This document shows positions 8,565 to 19,266 of a stretch of 37,519 nt of DNA, in pieces. The position numbers and the translations under genes were made by a program. Every line of letters starts with the position of its first letter. Within the stretch, counting starts at the first letter, position 1. This stretch comes from a virus: IMG/VR virus record IMGVR_UViG_3300030102_005027, positions 309 to 37,827 of that record. One strand, written 5' to 3'. The notes under the pieces are model-generated. The model made no database searches. It was not told the DNA's origin and saw only the letters and a list, made by a program, of their open reading frames with translations.

Positions 8565-9519
8565 TGATTGTGAATGTTGAAAGGTCTGTTTCGAATGGAA
8601 TCATACCGAGGATACCATCACGGTTCTTCTCGATATGACAAGCCATGAGTCCTATTGGGTCATGGCCACAGTATTTGTCTGTGATACCGTACAGGTCGTA
8701 CGGACGCTGCAACATCATGACGACGTGTGCATCCTGACCGATAGAGTCACCACCAAACAAGTCTGTGAGTAGAGGCTGATACTGTTGTTTAGCACGGAAC
8801 TCCTGCTCGATGTTACGATTGAGCTGCGACAGCAGTATCGTAATGCAGGTCATGCGTGCTTGCATCCACATACACGCCTTAGATAGCTCGTTGAGCTTCT
8901 TAAGTTCTGTGTCTGCTTTTGAGCGAACCAGCCGTGAGTGGTCAATAAGGTTGATGACTGTGGTACCAGGGTACCGTATGAATACGTCTTCATTTACCTT
9001 CTTGACTCGCTCCATATTCTGCGGGATAGAGCAGAAGAAGATTGGGTATGTCTTGTACTTCTGTACCATACCCTCGTAGGTTTTGAACTTCTCATCGCTG
9101 AGCTTGTGTTCAACAGACAATAGTTCGAACGTCTGCATCTTAGTGTCCTTCGAGCCTGCACGTAGTATCTGCTGATACCCTGGCATCTCGAATGACCAAT
9201 ACAGAACGACGACGTTCTTGCCCTTGTTGTAGTCCAATACGTCGAAGATCAACTGGTTTGAGAAGGCTGACTTCCCAACACCAGGTCGACCTGCAATGAC
9301 ATACATCTTACCGGGCTGTAAGCCCCCCATCAAGTTCTTGTTCAGCTTAGGCCACCGCGTAGGGTAGACTACTCTGTTACCCCACATACCAGACTTAACC
9401 TCAGCGACAGACTTGTCGACTGAGTATGCGATATGTTTGAGTTCCTTGATGCCGCCTAGATCATAGCGTGCGTGTGATGCGTCCTGTGGATTCTGTGGGT
9501 TGTTCATGTTTCTGCTCAT
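8542..9519 (-). CDS. Replicative DNA helicase, DnaB-like (RecA-fold domain)
   Basis: 325 residues, containing only the C-terminal ATPase domain of DnaB-type helicases plus a short N-terminal extension. Walker A is GRPGVGKS at 77-84; Walker B lies in TVINLIDHSRLV at about 190-200; ILLSQLNRNIEQE at about 229-241 matches the conserved SQLNR motif (H3/H4 region) of DnaB and T7 gp4-type helicases. The DnaB N-terminal primase-interaction domain is absent, so primase contact must be made otherwise. It would unwind DNA 5'-3' at the fork with primase and PolA. The start at 9519 overlaps the upstream gene by 59 bases; an in-frame ATG at 9507 is an alternative. Confidence 0.88.
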   Translation of the reverse strand: MSRNMNNPQNPQDASHARYDLGGIKELKHIAYSVDKSVAEVKSGMWGNRVVYPTRWPKLNKNLMGGLQPGKMYVIAGRPGVGKSAFSNQLIFDVLDYNKGKNVVVLYWSFEMPGYQQILRAGSKDTKMQTFELLSVEHKLSDEKFKTYEGMVQKYKTYPIFFCSIPQNMERVKKVNEDVFIRYPGTTVINLIDHSRLVRSKADTELKKLNELSKACMWMQARMTCITILLSQLNRNIEQEFRAKQQYQPLLTDLFGGDSIGQDAHVVMMLQRPYDLYGITDKYCGHDPIGLMACHIEKNRDGILGMIPFETDLSTFTINERITTT

Positions 9520-11702: not shown

Positions 11703-11820
11703 ATTGCATTTCTTGATATTTAACTATAACTGATACTAGCTGCCTGCGCGTCGCAGACAAGTCTTTCTTCAGGAGCTCCATCTGGGTAGAGAGTTCCTGA
11801 AGTTTCAAGTTCGTATCCAT
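11611..11820 (-). CDS. Small coiled-coil protein, overlapped on both ends
   Basis: 69 residues. The first 45 form a convincing amphipathic helix (LKLQELSTQMELLKKDLSAT, then RRQLVSVIVKYQEMQYELQT); the last 25 (Arg/Asp/Asn-rich) look like read-through of another gene's frame. Only 17 bases are unique: the 5' 101 overlap the end of the DnaA-like gene and the 3' 92 overlap the 79-residue gene. Either it is a real overprinted gene or its first half is translated by frameshift from the DnaA-like gene. It is kept as a gene because the N-terminal heptad pattern is better than the overlapping DnaA-like tail. Confidence 0.45.
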   Translation of the reverse strand: MDTNLKLQELSTQMELLKKDLSATRRQLVSVIVKYQEMQYELQTRNGAGDRNRNLTRDVYLRDKSRESG

Positions 11821-12208
11821 TAGATGTTAGTTTTTTTGCCGCCTGATATAGACAGCGGTAATACAAAGTCCTGAAGTCCTTCTCAATCTCTATCAGTTCG
11901 CCTGCCCTAGCATTAGAGTAGACAACTGTAGAGTGATCACGTTCTCCAAGATATTCACCAAGCACTCTGAACTGAAAGTTGAACAGCTCCCTACCAATCT
12001 TGAAGAATATCTTCCTCACGTCTGATAGGTGTCGTGTTCTTAGTTTGCTTATCAGTTCTTCGCTTGTAACGTCAGATGTCTCACATACAACCTGAAGCAA
12101 GATGTCAAGCTCGCCCCTATTGAAGCTTCTCTTGTATCGTATGGTTGATTGTGAAGATGTGTGTAATCCTGCGTACACATATGGATGAGGTCGAGGTGTT
12201 TGATTCAT
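11720..12208 (-). CDS. DnaA domain IV-like DNA-binding protein
   Basis: 162 residues. The core (about 44-110) matches DnaA domain IV: a SKLRTRHLSDVRKIFFKIGR helix in place of the basic-loop RQ(V/I)AMYLARE segment, then FRVLGEYLGERDHSTVVYSN, which preserves the (G)xRDHxTV signature that contacts the DnaA box, then an acidic helix (AGELIEIEKDFRTLYYRC). The AAA+ ATPase and other DnaA domains are absent. Known DnaA binds TTATNCACA boxes through this domain. Here the protein could bind the phage origin, compete with host DnaA, or regulate promoters. The last ~30 residues are poorly protein-like and overlap a coiled-coil ORF. Confidence 0.8.
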   Translation of the reverse strand: MNQTPRPHPYVYAGLHTSSQSTIRYKRSFNRGELDILLQVVCETSDVTSEELISKLRTRHLSDVRKIFFKIGRELFNFQFRVLGEYLGERDHSTVVYSNARAGELIEIEKDFRTLYYRCLYQAAKKLTSNGYELETSGTLYPDGAPEERLVCDAQAASISYS

Positions 12209-12233
12209 TTGGAATGTAGTTATGTGTTTGCTG

Positions 12234-12306
12234 TGCGCCTGGTAGGACTTGAACCTACGGCCAATTGATTATGAGTCAACTGCTCTAACCACTGAGCTAC
12301 AGGCGC
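12234..12306 (-). tRNA. tRNA with CAU anticodon, likely tRNA-Ile2 (AUA-reading)
   Basis: A canonical cloverleaf folds by eye: acceptor GCGCCTG/CAGGCGC, D-arm GCTC/GAGC, anticodon stem GTTGA/TCAAT with loop CTCATAA, T-arm GTAGG/CCTAC, discriminator A; CCA is not encoded. The anticodon is CAU. C4-G69 and C5-G68 in the acceptor and the C32 loop (ACTCATAATC) are the features of E. coli tRNA-Ile2, the substrate of the lysidine synthase TilS, rather than of elongator Met tRNA, whose loop starts TTCAT. I therefore favour an AUA-decoding tRNA; Met remains possible. It is immediately downstream of a terminator. Confidence 0.9.
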
Positions 12307-12335
12307 AAAAAGGGCCAGTGACGTTTCACCGGCCC
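12307..12335 (-). terminator. Rho-independent terminator between tRNA genes
   Basis: On the minus strand the stem GGGCC/GGCCC is continued by GTGA/TCAC around a short loop and is followed by TTTTT directly before the CAU tRNA. It would end transcripts coming from polA and the Arg and tRNA-like genes. The CAU tRNA and the DnaA-like gene would then depend on read-through or on a promoter that I cannot identify. Confidence 0.75.
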
Positions 12336-12380
12336 CGCTGCTGAATGAAACACGTGGGAGCTGTTATCGCCTCACACGCG

Positions 12381-12457
12381 TTCTCGAGGCGGGGCTTGAA
12401 CCCGCATGTAACCAGTTACCCTTTCAACAAGGTATAAGCTTGAGGGGATACTCGAGA
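12381..12457 (-). tRNA. tRNA-like gene without a D-arm (isotype uncertain, possibly UAU)
   Basis: The acceptor stem is perfect (TCTCGAG/CTCGAGA, discriminator A) and so is the T-arm (GCGGG, loop TTCAAGC, CCCGC), but no D-arm exists. Between them, CAAG/CTTG closes a seven-base loop CTTATAC with U33 and anticodon TAT (12434-12436); TA-CCC/GGGTA can close a longer stem around it. A different fold, TACCT/GGGTA with an eight-base loop, is also possible. The 3' end is separated from the tRNA-Arg gene by one base, so processing from a common precursor is likely. It may be a degenerate pseudo-tRNA or a non-canonical functional one. Confidence 0.5.
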
Positions 12458-12458
12458 G

Positions 12459-12532
12459 TACCTCAGGCGGGACTCGAACCCACAACCTACAGCTTAGAAG
12501 GCTGTTGCACTATCCAGTTGTGCTACTGAGGC
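12459..12532 (-). tRNA. tRNA-Arg (UCU)
   Basis: Full cloverleaf: acceptor GCCTCAG with CTGAGGT (first pair G-U), D-arm GCAC/GTGC, anticodon stem ACAGC/GCTGT with loop CTTCTAA (anticodon TCT), T-arm GTGGG/CCCGC; CCA is not encoded. It reads AGA/AGG, which are the commonest Arg codons in many genes of this window, notably the tail fibre and portal. First of the minus-strand tRNA group, downstream of the small gene at 12541. Confidence 0.93.
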
Positions 12533-12540
12533 ATAGAGAC

Positions 12541-14911: not shown

Positions 14912-15493
14912 TTACGACTGCAAACCAGCGCCCTCCATCTGGAGAGTCTCCACGATCTGCGTAGCAGGAGCTGCAGATGCAGGAGTGGCTTGCAAGAAGC
15001 TGTGGTTAATAGCTTCTGCCGCAGTCAACTTGGTGTGACGGTAGACAGGCATGCTCGTCCCAGTAGCTGGGTTGAGAGCCTTGACAACCTCACCGGTTGA
15101 CGGATTTACCTTTGGCTCCTGTTTTTCGGAGTATGGGTTACGTTCGAAGTTCTCTACAACTTCGATACCCATGGCAAATCCATAGACATCGTCTGCATAG
15201 TGCAGCTTGTCTCCATCATTGTAGCATGTGCCTTCCATGGCACCAAAGATTTTGACAGCCTGCTCAGCAGACAGTGAACGAATAGCGGTCACACCCGTTG
15301 TGTTACCAAGCTCAGGAGTACCCTGCTCGAAAGCAATCATCTTGCTCTCGATGCTACCAGCAGTTGCTGGACGCTCAATCTGTTGAGCAAACTGCACGGA
15401 TACCTGGTTCTTAGTAGAACGAGGGTTAACCCACCAACGACGTACCACGGTTTTGCCTGTGGTCAGGGCATTTTGATAAGCTGTTGAAGCCAT
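14912..15493 (-). CDS. Unrecognised 193-residue protein in its own transcription unit
   Basis: Not recognised. The N-terminus is basic and aromatic (TGKTVVRRWWVNPRSTKNQV); the middle is mixed alpha/beta (LHYADDVYGFAMGIEVVENF); the tail is Ala/Pro-rich and probably flexible. It is bounded by strong terminators on both sides (14831-14860 and 15515-15548), so it is a monocistronic gene, which in phages often means high expression, for example SSB, DNA-binding or structural proteins. The leader just upstream is very A-rich on the plus strand (T-rich on the minus strand) because it is the preceding terminator's tail. An abundant nucleic-acid-binding protein is a reasonable guess, no more. Confidence 0.75.
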   Translation of the reverse strand: MASTAYQNALTTGKTVVRRWWVNPRSTKNQVSVQFAQQIERPATAGSIESKMIAFEQGTPELGNTTGVTAIRSLSAEQAVKIFGAMEGTCYNDGDKLHYADDVYGFAMGIEVVENFERNPYSEKQEPKVNPSTGEVVKALNPATGTSMPVYRHTKLTAAEAINHSFLQATPASAAPATQIVETLQMEGAGLQS

Positions 15494-15558: not shown

Positions 15559-15735
15559 TTATCCAAATGATAGCCTGAAGCCCATGTACATGAGCAGGGC
15601 AATCAAGATGAAGTAATGAAGCTTGTCATTTGTGTAGATCCCAAATGGATCAAAGCCCTTGTACTTAGCGTACAGAAGGGTAAGAGTACCTACAATAAAT
15701 AGAATAGTCATAGCGTGTAAATCTATCCCAATCAT
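15559..15735 (-). CDS. Small two-pass membrane protein (holin-like candidate)
   Basis: 58 residues from the ATG at 15735, chosen because it overlaps the lipoprotein stop as ATGA; a longer frame upstream lies inside the lipoprotein gene. Two hydrophobic segments, AMTILFIVGTLTLLYAKY and LHYFILIALLMYMGFRL, are separated by a short polar loop (KGFDPFGIYTNDK). Size and topology match small phage holins, and the neighbours are a lipoprotein and a peptidoglycan-enzyme-like protein, so a lysis role is plausible. A small superinfection or signalling membrane protein would look the same. It is on the early-side strand, which argues some caution about lysis. Confidence 0.65.
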   Translation of the reverse strand: MIGIDLHAMTILFIVGTLTLLYAKYKGFDPFGIYTNDKLHYFILIALLMYMGFRLSFG

Positions 15736-16205
15736 GCTACCTGTAATGAAGCACAACCGAGGGTTACCCCAACTGCAAATGCAACTGCACACTCAGGACA
15801 CAGAGCAGCACCAACAAAGCTGACAGCTGTGTGATCATCAATGACTTGGTCGAAGGTGTCTTCGATGCAGTCACCAATACACTCCCAGCATACTGACTCT
15901 GGTCCGTTAAGGTCGTACATCTCCCATGCATTCATTGCATCGTTGAGTTGAACAACATACTGAATACGAGTGTGTCGACTGTATACTTCCATGATAATGG
16001 CACTGTTCTTAGTACCCATGTCGTATGCATTCCAACGAACACCCTGTTTGTACTTGCCTTGATCAATGAGCTTGTACTCACGACCAGACTTTGTTGTAAG
16101 AGTAGGAATAGCCTGCTCCTTTGTACATGATGCGAGTGACATGATAGTCACTGCCATTGCTGCTACGATAGCGTAGCGAAGTATAACTCCATAGAATTCT
16201 CTCAT
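15732..16205 (-). CDS. Cys-rich lipoprotein
   Basis: 157 residues. A lipoprotein signal is clear: basic start, hydrophobic core (AIVAAMAVTIM), then a LASC lipobox with Cys27 as the lipidation site, followed by TKEQ, a composition common in Bacteroidota lipoproteins. The mature part has a Tyr/Lys-rich region and several cysteines (CWECIGDC and CPEC), suggesting disulfides or metal binding after export, and ends in a hydrophobic Ala/Val/Gly tail. It is in the periplasm or outer membrane of the infected cell. Phage lipoproteins often act as spanins or superinfection blockers; neither can be decided here. Coupled by ATGA to the downstream membrane protein. Confidence 0.75.
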   Translation of the reverse strand: MREFYGVILRYAIVAAMAVTIMSLASCTKEQAIPTLTTKSGREYKLIDQGKYKQGVRWNAYDMGTKNSAIIMEVYSRHTRIQYVVQLNDAMNAWEMYDLNGPESVCWECIGDCIEDTFDQVIDDHTAVSFVGAALCPECAVAFAVGVTLGCASLQVA

Positions 16206-17051: not shown

Positions 17052-17381
17052 TTAATGTGAAACGTAGTTTGGCTTTGGTCTCCTCAGTACGAGTCGGTTT
17101 AAGTCTGCACAAGCTTCCATGTGTGTAGCTTGTACTAGTATCAATAGTTTACCCACCGCCTTGAGTTGTGACTCAACACGATGGAGTTGACGTTCGTTAG
17201 GGTAAGGTGTGGCATATTGTTGTTCCCACTGTTCCTTATTCCTACATAGCCAACGATAGTGGCGTTGGATGTCTGCGTGCTGACTATTTATGATAGCCAA
17301 CACACGAGACATACCATCGCAAAGTCCTTGGTTGTGCGTCAAGTTTACTTGTTCGCCCCATTCAACAGTGTAACCAATCAT
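17052..17381 (-). CDS. Unrecognised helical protein
   Basis: 109 residues, His/Gln/Arg-rich and helical throughout (INSQHADIQRHYRWLCRNKE, then LHRVESQLKAVGKLLILVQA). No membrane segment or motif recognised. Its ATG overlaps the stop of the preceding small coiled-coil gene (TAATG), so both are made from one message in the early-side gene group. Confidence 0.65.
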   Translation of the reverse strand: MIGYTVEWGEQVNLTHNQGLCDGMSRVLAIINSQHADIQRHYRWLCRNKEQWEQQYATPYPNERQLHRVESQLKAVGKLLILVQATHMEACADLNRLVLRRPKPNYVSH

Positions 17382-17569
17382 TATTCAAGATCGATCTTTT
17401 TAAGCTGGGCAAGTGCAACACGCAAGGACATACGCTCTTCCTTGAGATTCTCGATGAGGTCATCGATCTCATCCAGACGTTTGTTCACGTCATACTTCTG
17501 TTCAGTAACGAATGCTCTGATTGTCTGAACTCTTTGGACACCAGGTGCCACAAGTCTATTACCTTCCAT
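17381..17569 (-). CDS. Small coiled-coil protein
   Basis: 62 residues from the ATG at 17569 (MEGNRLVAPG). The longer frame to 17641 runs through a hairpin and the A/T-rich leader and is rejected. Residues 20-60 form a strongly charged heptad-like helix (EIDDLIENLKEERMSLRVAL) predicted to dimerise. The leader upstream shares a TTAGTTAACCTTA-type element with two other small genes of this region. Function unknown. Confidence 0.65.
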   Translation of the reverse strand: MEGNRLVAPGVQRVQTIRAFVTEQKYDVNKRLDEIDDLIENLKEERMSLRVALAQLKKIDLE

Positions 17570-17641
17570 GATATATTGTTTAAGGTTAACTAAGAAATGA
17601 GAATGGTTAGCTGTGAGTGGGAAGGTATACCAGCCTTCCAA

Positions 17642-18158
17642 TGAACGTCAGCTTTAAGTTACGTGGTTACTCTTGTAGCACATCTGGGTTGTTAATCCAT
17701 CAAGCTGGCCAGCGAGATTTCGCCAGTACTATTTGAGTATCACTTCACGAGGCTGCAACTCGATTGAAGTTCACACGCCACACTAATAGGTAATTAATGT
17801 GTATTCGTTCATGCCACCTTGCTACGGATGCTTCACGCATCAGCCCACCAGAAGATACCACGCTTGTGATATAACCAGCTGCCTGTAGTCGGCGCACATT
17901 ATCCCCTCAGTGTAGAGGGATTATTCTGTCACACTCCAGACGGCGGATGATCAATCCTATGTCTGTTTGACAGCTAACCAAAGACGGTAACGGGAAGAGG
18001 TAGTAATCCTAACTACACTCATACATCTTGAGCCGGCTCAGTAGGTCATGCCACTCTTCCCGAACTATTGTACCACTCAGTACTAAAGGGATAGTTACTC
18101 CCGCATGTATAGAGGACATGCGACCCCACCTTGAATAGGATATAGTTAACCCAAGGAT
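17642..18158 (-). ncRNA. Candidate large structured non-coding RNA region
   Basis: About 515 bases without a convincing gene, dense in hairpins: 17780-17800 (eight pairs, ACATTAAT/ATTAGTGT on the minus strand), 17827-17841 (GATGC/GCATC), a bulged stem around 17901-17921 (ATCCC..GGGAT), the long-range nine-pair stem 17991-17999 with 18054-18062, inner stems at 18001-18016 and 18030-18040, and 18103-18121 (GCATGT/ACATGC). In the first hairpin one pair is G-U on the minus strand but A-C on the plus strand, which favours minus-strand RNA. Identity is unknown; no terminator was found at its end. It could instead be an origin or packaging region. Confidence 0.4.
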
Positions 18159-18287
18159 TTATTTGTGTGCGATTTCCATATCTGCATACGCTGCGCAGTA
18201 CTGTCCTTGTGTACCACACGATGCCAACATCACGATGATTGCAATAAGCGCAAACCATCCAGCCAGATAAGCAAGCAAAGTCTTCAT
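18159..18287 (-). CDS. Very small lipoprotein (42 residues)
   Basis: Short gene read from the ATG at 18287: MKTLLAYLAGWFALIAIIVM followed by LASC and GTQGQYCAAYADMEIAHK, ending TAA at 18159. Positive start, a 17-residue hydrophobic core and an LASC lipobox make this a confident lipoprotein signal, with only 18 mature residues after the lipidated Cys plus a second Cys. Similar micro-lipoproteins are common in Bacteroidota and their phages. It may act at the membrane in superinfection control. A 97-residue frame covering the same bases (18046-18339) has no such logic and is rejected. Confidence 0.75.
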   Translation of the reverse strand: MKTLLAYLAGWFALIAIIVMLASCGTQGQYCAAYADMEIAHK

Positions 18288-18411
18288 GTTCAGTGTTATT
18301 TAGGGTTATCGAAGAGAATAAAAAGCAGTTTGTCTTCATGCTTAGGAATACGACGTTGCCATTGCTGACTGTGTGTGACTTAATGAGAACACGTACGTCC
18401 TTTCTAATCTG
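18288..18411 (-). other. Short gap with an open frame lacking a start codon
   Basis: No gene can be assigned. The minus strand between 18379 and 18296 has an open stretch ending RRIPKHEDKLLFILFDNPK then TAA that looks protein-like, but it contains no ATG, GTG or TTG after the upstream stop. It may be a gene remnant. The segment 18299-18315 carries the leader element CTTCGATAACCCTAAATAA ahead of the 42-residue lipoprotein. Confidence 0.35.
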
Positions 18412-18477
18412 TTACTTGGAAGGAGTGTAGTCCCGCAATGGGATCAACACACCGTCCACCATTACGTATGTAATCAT
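18412..18477 (-). CDS. Candidate 21-residue micro-protein
   Basis: Frame from ATG at 18477 to TAA at 18412: MITYVMVDGVLIPLRDYTPS plus a final Lys. The residue pattern is protein-like and the sequence around the start (ACGAGTCATGA) repeats that of the 82-residue gene at 18894 (TCGAGTCATGA). It is too short for statistical support; it could be a leader peptide. Confidence 0.4.
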   Translation of the reverse strand: MITYVMVDGVLIPLRDYTPSK

Positions 18478-18621
18478 GACTCGTGGGTTAACTAAGGTTA
18501 TCTAAGAAGTGACATAGTGTACTATGTCGAAGAACTGTAGTGGTGGTAGAATGTGGGAAAAAGTGGTGAGTGAGACCTAGTCCAAGCATTCACGAACACT
18601 AACTAATGTTTCTTGATTGGG
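18478..18621. other. Gene-free spacer with a perfect inverted repeat
   Basis: 144 bases with no convincing frame (only a 33-codon His/Thr-rich minus-strand frame). It holds the shared leader element near 18485-18509 and the inverted repeat at 18511-18528, and lies downstream of the terminator of the 82-residue gene. A promoter for the small early-type genes would be expected here, but I cannot identify one. Confidence 0.4.
18511..18528. repeat. Perfect inverted repeat, operator-like
   Basis: GACATAGT-GT-ACTATGTC: eight-base arms around a two-base centre. No T-run follows on either strand, so it is not a terminator. It is 34 bases upstream of the 21-residue ORF start on the minus strand, a fitting place for a dimeric regulator to bind. 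Confidence 0.6.
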
Positions 18622-18654
18622 TAAGAAGGGCGAAGCCCGCACTCGTTAGAGTGC
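18622..18654 (-). terminator. Tandem-hairpin terminator after the 82-residue gene
   Basis: On the minus strand two adjacent hairpins, GCACTC/GAGTGC (loop TAAC containing the gene's stop codon) and GGGC/GCCC with a TTC loop, are followed by TTCTTA. The T-run is imperfect, so partial read-through into the small genes is likely. Confidence 0.65.
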
Positions 18655-19026: not shown

Positions 19027-19266
19027 ATAGAGACCACATCCTAGTGATCGGCCTTAGGTAACCAGTAAAGGCCTAGACATCGGGTTACATTAACCACCAA
19101 CATAGGTGATGAACGTCGTCCCCGGTAGTCTCGAAAAGTGCGTTGGTATAAAACTCGGGAGGGAACAAGGCTATGGGCTGATAGAAATGCCCCCTCATAG
19201 GCTCAACACGGCGAGTGGAAGTCCAACGTTAGACAAAATTCCTCAGGGGGATAAGTGTGCCCAATA
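19027..19266 (+). promoter_or_regulatory. Long, possibly structured 5' leader of the tail-fibre transcript
   Basis: About 240 bases between the promoter-like site and the fibre ATG. GGCCTT (19050-19055) pairs with AAGGCC (19068-19073), and GTAACC in that loop (19058-19063) pairs with GGTTAC (19083-19088), giving an H-type pseudoknot. A further hairpin joins CTATG (19171-19175) with CATAG (19196-19200). The 3' part also reads as a 52-codon frame, listed separately. AGGGGG at 19245-19250 is the only Shine-Dalgarno-like run. Confidence 0.45.

Follow-up and report, generated by a model that had tools for sequence, protein, structure and literature searches.

A gap between two genes in the window (the whole stretch analysed, 37,519 nt, positions 309–37827 of the 68.6-kb viral record IMGVR_UViG_3300030102_005027) very probably encodes structured RNA, judging from compensatory changes among related sequences. 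The best reading, and one we hold to be somewhat better than an even chance, is an array of small RNA cassettes that are transcribed leftward and can be exchanged. The minus strand would encode at least two small, independent RNAs: module B (~237 nt) and a 72–75-nt cloverleaf, the latter preceded by a separable 5′ domain, A5. That these RNAs are separate, exchangeable units is likely.

Genomic setting and limits of the gap

Genes for a terminase, polA, a primase and a helicase were named via PHROGs. The major head protein had 138 matches in the phage collection, mostly in crAss-like phages or in phages of Bacteroides and Flavobacterium (best match ~28% identity). We infer that the phage is crAss-like, and marine as read from the sources of related contigs. 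Among named phages the window had no nucleotide relatives; the matches were due to chance or to ordinary tRNA only. Genes of the left arm lie on the minus strand and those of the right arm on the plus strand.

The gap (17570–18158) lies inside a leftward replication/lysis operon on the minus strand. Its upstream neighbour (18159–18287, minus strand) encodes a 42-aa lipoprotein-like product and has a stop codon that adjoins the gap; the downstream gene (17381–17569, minus strand) encodes 62 aa. An earlier note had described a gene-free gap at 17642–18158 (~515 bases). The absence of genes held but the limits did not, because the downstream gene most likely starts at the ATG at 17569, which makes the gap ~589 bases long. 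In agreement with the earlier finding of no convincing gene, no ORF of ≥25 aa within the stretch was conserved as a protein. Short DNA matches to two relatives (L036 and L019) fell on both strands and in two minus-strand frames, and ended after 20–29 residues. A 97-aa ORF (18046–18339) was rejected because it runs across the lipoprotein gene in a different frame and its protein is not conserved. A scan for sigma-70 promoters found none. The claim that the rest of the left arm is uniformly packed with genes proved incorrect: tRNAs lie at 12209–12540, and ~360 bases at 18288–18646 have no long ORF.

Two other features of the window were observed. A segment of ~215 bases (19044–19258), directly upstream of the first plus-strand gene, was 81–87% identical in many relatives and may be a conserved promoter, leader or small gene. 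An H-type pseudoknot (15554–15524, minus strand) lies directly upstream of gene 14912–15493; both of its helices carry compensatory changes among relatives, and it is reminiscent of leaders that act in autoregulation, as in T4 gene 32.

An origin of replication had been named as the main alternative, and a long, hairpin-bearing gap near both the switch in gene direction and the turn in cumulative GC skew (~18.0–18.5 kb) would suit one. However, the skew turn coincides with the change in coding direction and is thus not independent evidence for an origin. No iteron-like repeats were found, and the modules described below are absent from most relatives’ versions of this part of the operon. We consider an origin very improbable.

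The gap had also been called hairpin-rich, but by energy it did not exceed chance: the whole region had z values of −2.0 (plus strand) and −1.8 (minus strand), and 120-base windows inside the gap averaged −0.31 on the minus strand versus −1.12 across the whole arm. The named hairpins were themselves exact, both the nine-pair stem (17991–17999 with 18054–18062) and the hairpin at 17780–17800, including its U-G pair on the minus strand. Since the remainder of the arm is at least as stable as this region, nothing follows from folding energy by itself, and the relatives must decide. That is, hairpins spotted by eye are no evidence, and the earlier conclusion of structured RNA was right on other ground. 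A long-range closing stem (~18154/17690) in the single-sequence fold was rejected, since A5 closes locally in the relatives.

The RNA modules and their relatives

A search with polA recovered 28 related viral contigs; all contigs compared in this study are metagenomic assemblies. Nucleotide comparison of the gap with these relatives gave patchy matches, of which the significant ones were all in the minus-strand sense, and the pattern of matches split the gap into three units: A5, the cloverleaf and module B. The remainder (17570–17739, minus strand, 170 bases) had no relative in the nucleotide search. Degenerate pattern scans of sequence records gave mostly chance matches, and those in L031, L033, L034, L035, L050 and L054–L065, including three in cellular genomes, were rejected as such.

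Module A5 (18098–18157, minus strand) matched L036, L019 and L008, and partly L001/L002/L007/L027. It contains a helix (18156–18152/18133–18129, CCUUG/CAAGG), a conserved GGUGGGG and a hairpin (18122–18116/18108–18102, CGCAUGU/ACAUGCG). Its 3′ neighbour varies among the cloverleaf, a different hairpin (L019) and a tRNA-like element (L008). Between A5 and the cloverleaf in the window lies a minus-strand hairpin (18063–18096, AACUAU/AUAGUU) that in L019 reads AACCAU/AUGGUU, a compensatory change.

The cloverleaf (17989–18063, minus strand) was identified by folds, covariation and a covariance model. In the window it has a 9-bp closing stem (18062–18054/17999–17991), a 4-bp arm, a 5-bp arm with the 7-nt loop AGAUGUA and a 5-bp arm with the 7-nt loop UAGGAUU, joined at a four-way junction with no unpaired linkers. 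Across the window, L007 and L052 the closing stem has 8–9 bp, and the last arm has 4–5 bp and the loop UAGGAU. Each of these three sequences has the cloverleaf as its own minimum-energy fold, the centroid structure of the window being different. Matches were found in L001/L002, L007/L027, L052 and L053, and L036 has a degenerate copy (30.6 bits); support thus comes from two diverged groups plus the degenerate copy. Four pairs were changed on both sides, compared with none when the partners were slid. In two inner stems, compensatory changes set the window apart from the others, whereas the closing stem and loops are nearly constant, apart from the outermost one or two closing pairs, which are lost in L052 and L053. 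We built a covariance model (R2) from L001, L007, L052 and L053 with the fold of L007, holding out the window. The model recovered the window cloverleaf at 61.8 bits (E 7e-13). In a cloverleaf model, L007 scored 101 bits, versus 17 bits on its reverse strand.

The four helices form a cloverleaf as those of a tRNA do, and the topology and arm sizes (4-bp, 5-bp/7-nt, 5-bp/7-nt) resemble phage tRNA genes. Unlike these genes, it has no TTC in the third loop, no variable loop and no linkers; sequence and alignments also revealed no T-loop UUCRA motif, U33 or 3′ discriminator/CCA. ARAGORN did not report it, and it had no match to the Rfam tRNA model.

Module B (17740–17976, minus strand) is homologous to L020 3938–4195, its only match, so that its support rests on two sequences (61% identity over the aligned module B region, in a 311-column alignment). 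The 5′ ends of its helix strands are at 17973/17931, 17965/17941, 17957/17948, 17921/17908, 17871/17861, 17841/17831, 17801/17786, 17769/17747 and 17762/17751. Among the 62 pairs of the joint fold, 18 were changed on both sides, nine on one side and none was broken. Examples (window versus L020) are CAGAC/GUCUG versus CAACC/GGUUG and GGAU/AUCC versus GAGG/CCUC, helices that are separated by a 3 × 3 internal loop in both sequences, and the hairpins UAUCAC-AAGC-GUGGUA versus UUACUCC-AAGC-GGAGUAA. We treated 80 coding segments alike as controls. These reached up to 16 double-changed pairs, so the 18 of module B are not decisive alone. The consensus energy is decisive: module B had a z of −9.8 (reverse complement −10.5), compared with −0.49 ± 1.43 and a minimum of −3.98 in the controls. 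In absolute energy, the consensus fold was stronger on the minus strand (−64.1 versus −48.1). Compensatory changes among homologues, the check that had been proposed earlier, exceeded the control.

Large phages encode big structured RNAs such as GOLLD and ROOL, and many GOLLD RNAs are longer than 800 nt. The earlier note had proposed a candidate large structured RNA of this sort; the structure is borne out by the compensatory changes, but the stretch proved to consist of several separable modules, not of a single RNA. A cmscan of the stretch against all 4227 Rfam families, ROOL and GOLLD included, returned nothing even at E 10, and the relatives had no Rfam match at the gathering threshold. 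The modules, ~60–240 nt each, also occur separately in relatives, which does not fit a single large RNA. GOLLD and ROOL are structured RNAs from phages; their function is unknown, and they often lie close to tRNA islands (PMC12286853). The array likewise lies in a phage, with tRNA genes in the same arm. Given the Rfam result and the modularity, membership in either family has almost no likelihood.

Exchange of the cloverleaf and turnover of the operon slot

Two of the records that carry the cloverleaf, L052 (64.5 kb) and L053 (35.7 kb), lacked any polA match with the window phage, and their terminase match to it was marginal at most (E 2.6e-5, 21% identity). They resemble each other and share neighbouring genes, so we counted them as one other lineage. 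Their cloverleaves were identical to those of L001 and L007 at 68–70 of 72 positions, versus 9–15 of 50 positions in the 50-base flanks; for L007 and L052 the values were 70/72, with flanks of 15/50 and 12/50. Similarity stopped exactly where the fold ends, and each carrying record had one copy. From these alignments we concluded that unrelated phages have exchanged the 72-nt cloverleaf as a unit whose edges coincide with the ends of the fold.

Sharp ends at an inverted repeat, occurrence in unrelated phages and cassette-like turnover of the slot could also mark a mobile DNA element or recombination site, a tiny palindrome with the closing stem as its terminal inverted repeat. The single copy in every searched record argues against this explanation, as do inner stems that covary, with G-U pairs on one strand only, and loops that stay constant. 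By eye, the crAss-like copies showed no clear target duplications. We regard a DNA element as distinctly unlikely.

The exchanged unit also bears on the main rival, in which the structures stay part of the operon mRNA and work there in cis as a leader or spacer, affecting how the downstream genes are processed, stabilised or translated. The array does lie inside an operon between co-directional genes, and structured leaders do occur in this operon: in relatives, the next conserved gene is directly preceded by a covarying pseudoknot. However, the gene downstream of the array varies: the window has the 62-aa gene, L001 a homologue of 15732–16205, L007 a 14912–15493-like gene, and L052 and L053 unrelated genes. 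The cloverleaf, moreover, is kept without its flanks. Weakened in this way, a cis role seems rather unlikely, and we continue to favour an array of exchangeable RNA cassettes.

In the relatives, the slot is the part of the operon before the 14912–15493-like gene or its upstream neighbours. It is hypervariable in these marine crAss-like phages, and relatives carry other RNA cassettes there. Some are tRNA-like RNAs in which the T arm is canonical and the acceptor stem has 7 bp, but the body is abnormal, the other arms being rebuilt or missing. A motif scan, which yields 0.05 matches per random window, located them in L036 (6765–6820 and 6991–7094), L009 (9716–9792), L010 (9708–9787), L016 (9687–9803) and L019 (~8917–9003); further slot copies occur in L008, L020 and L021. 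L036 7772–7848 belongs to the same family of tRNA-like RNAs. The order in L036 is a tRNA-like element, A5, the cloverleaf and a second tRNA-like element.

Several observations concern neighbouring or similar RNAs. In the window, a tRNA-like RNA (12382–12457, minus strand) adjoins tRNA-Arg and was missed by ARAGORN and Rfam. The unrelated phage L052 carries the same body (11818–11893) with a different yet paired acceptor stem; the RNA is absent from the other relatives and looks precisely inserted. A ~220-nt noncoding slot element, 92% conserved between L044 (4661–4880; same contig as L009) and L020 (5048–5268), is probably another structured RNA. L008 361–468 has paired ends and a T arm, and by eye its 5′ part looks like the beginning of a tmRNA; it had no Rfam match.

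Possible roles of the RNAs

We propose that the array is transcribed from the operon and that its RNAs would then be processed from the operon transcript, the released RNAs acting in trans. Because the closing stem, third arm and loops of the cloverleaf are constant while two stems only keep their pairing, it looks as if a partner may read the RNA at these constant places. Given the shape of the cloverleaf and its tRNA-like company, our leading guess is tRNA mimicry toward a host factor, which might belong to tRNA processing, translation or a tRNA-targeting defence. Such mimicry is possible rather than probable. Plant RNA viruses carry tRNA-like structures within their RNA genomes. A possible common point with the cloverleaf is mimicry of tRNA shape (lead: PMC5723415); unlike them, the cloverleaf lies in the interior of an operon in a DNA phage.

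A search of open-licence literature found no description of these RNAs, which would bring two or more phage RNA families that Rfam lacks. One of them is a 72-nt RNA gene that unrelated phages have exchanged, with its edges set by the fold, and it is small enough for direct expression and testing. The slot points toward a reservoir of tRNA-like RNAs that are unannotated and escape standard tRNA finders. In the broadest reading, which we consider quite doubtful, marine phages would trade genes for small structured RNAs, cloverleaves of tRNA shape and rebuilt tRNA-like RNAs among them, in an operon slot dedicated to such genes, each gene moving as a precise cassette; the RNAs may then serve as tRNA mimics or decoys against the host.
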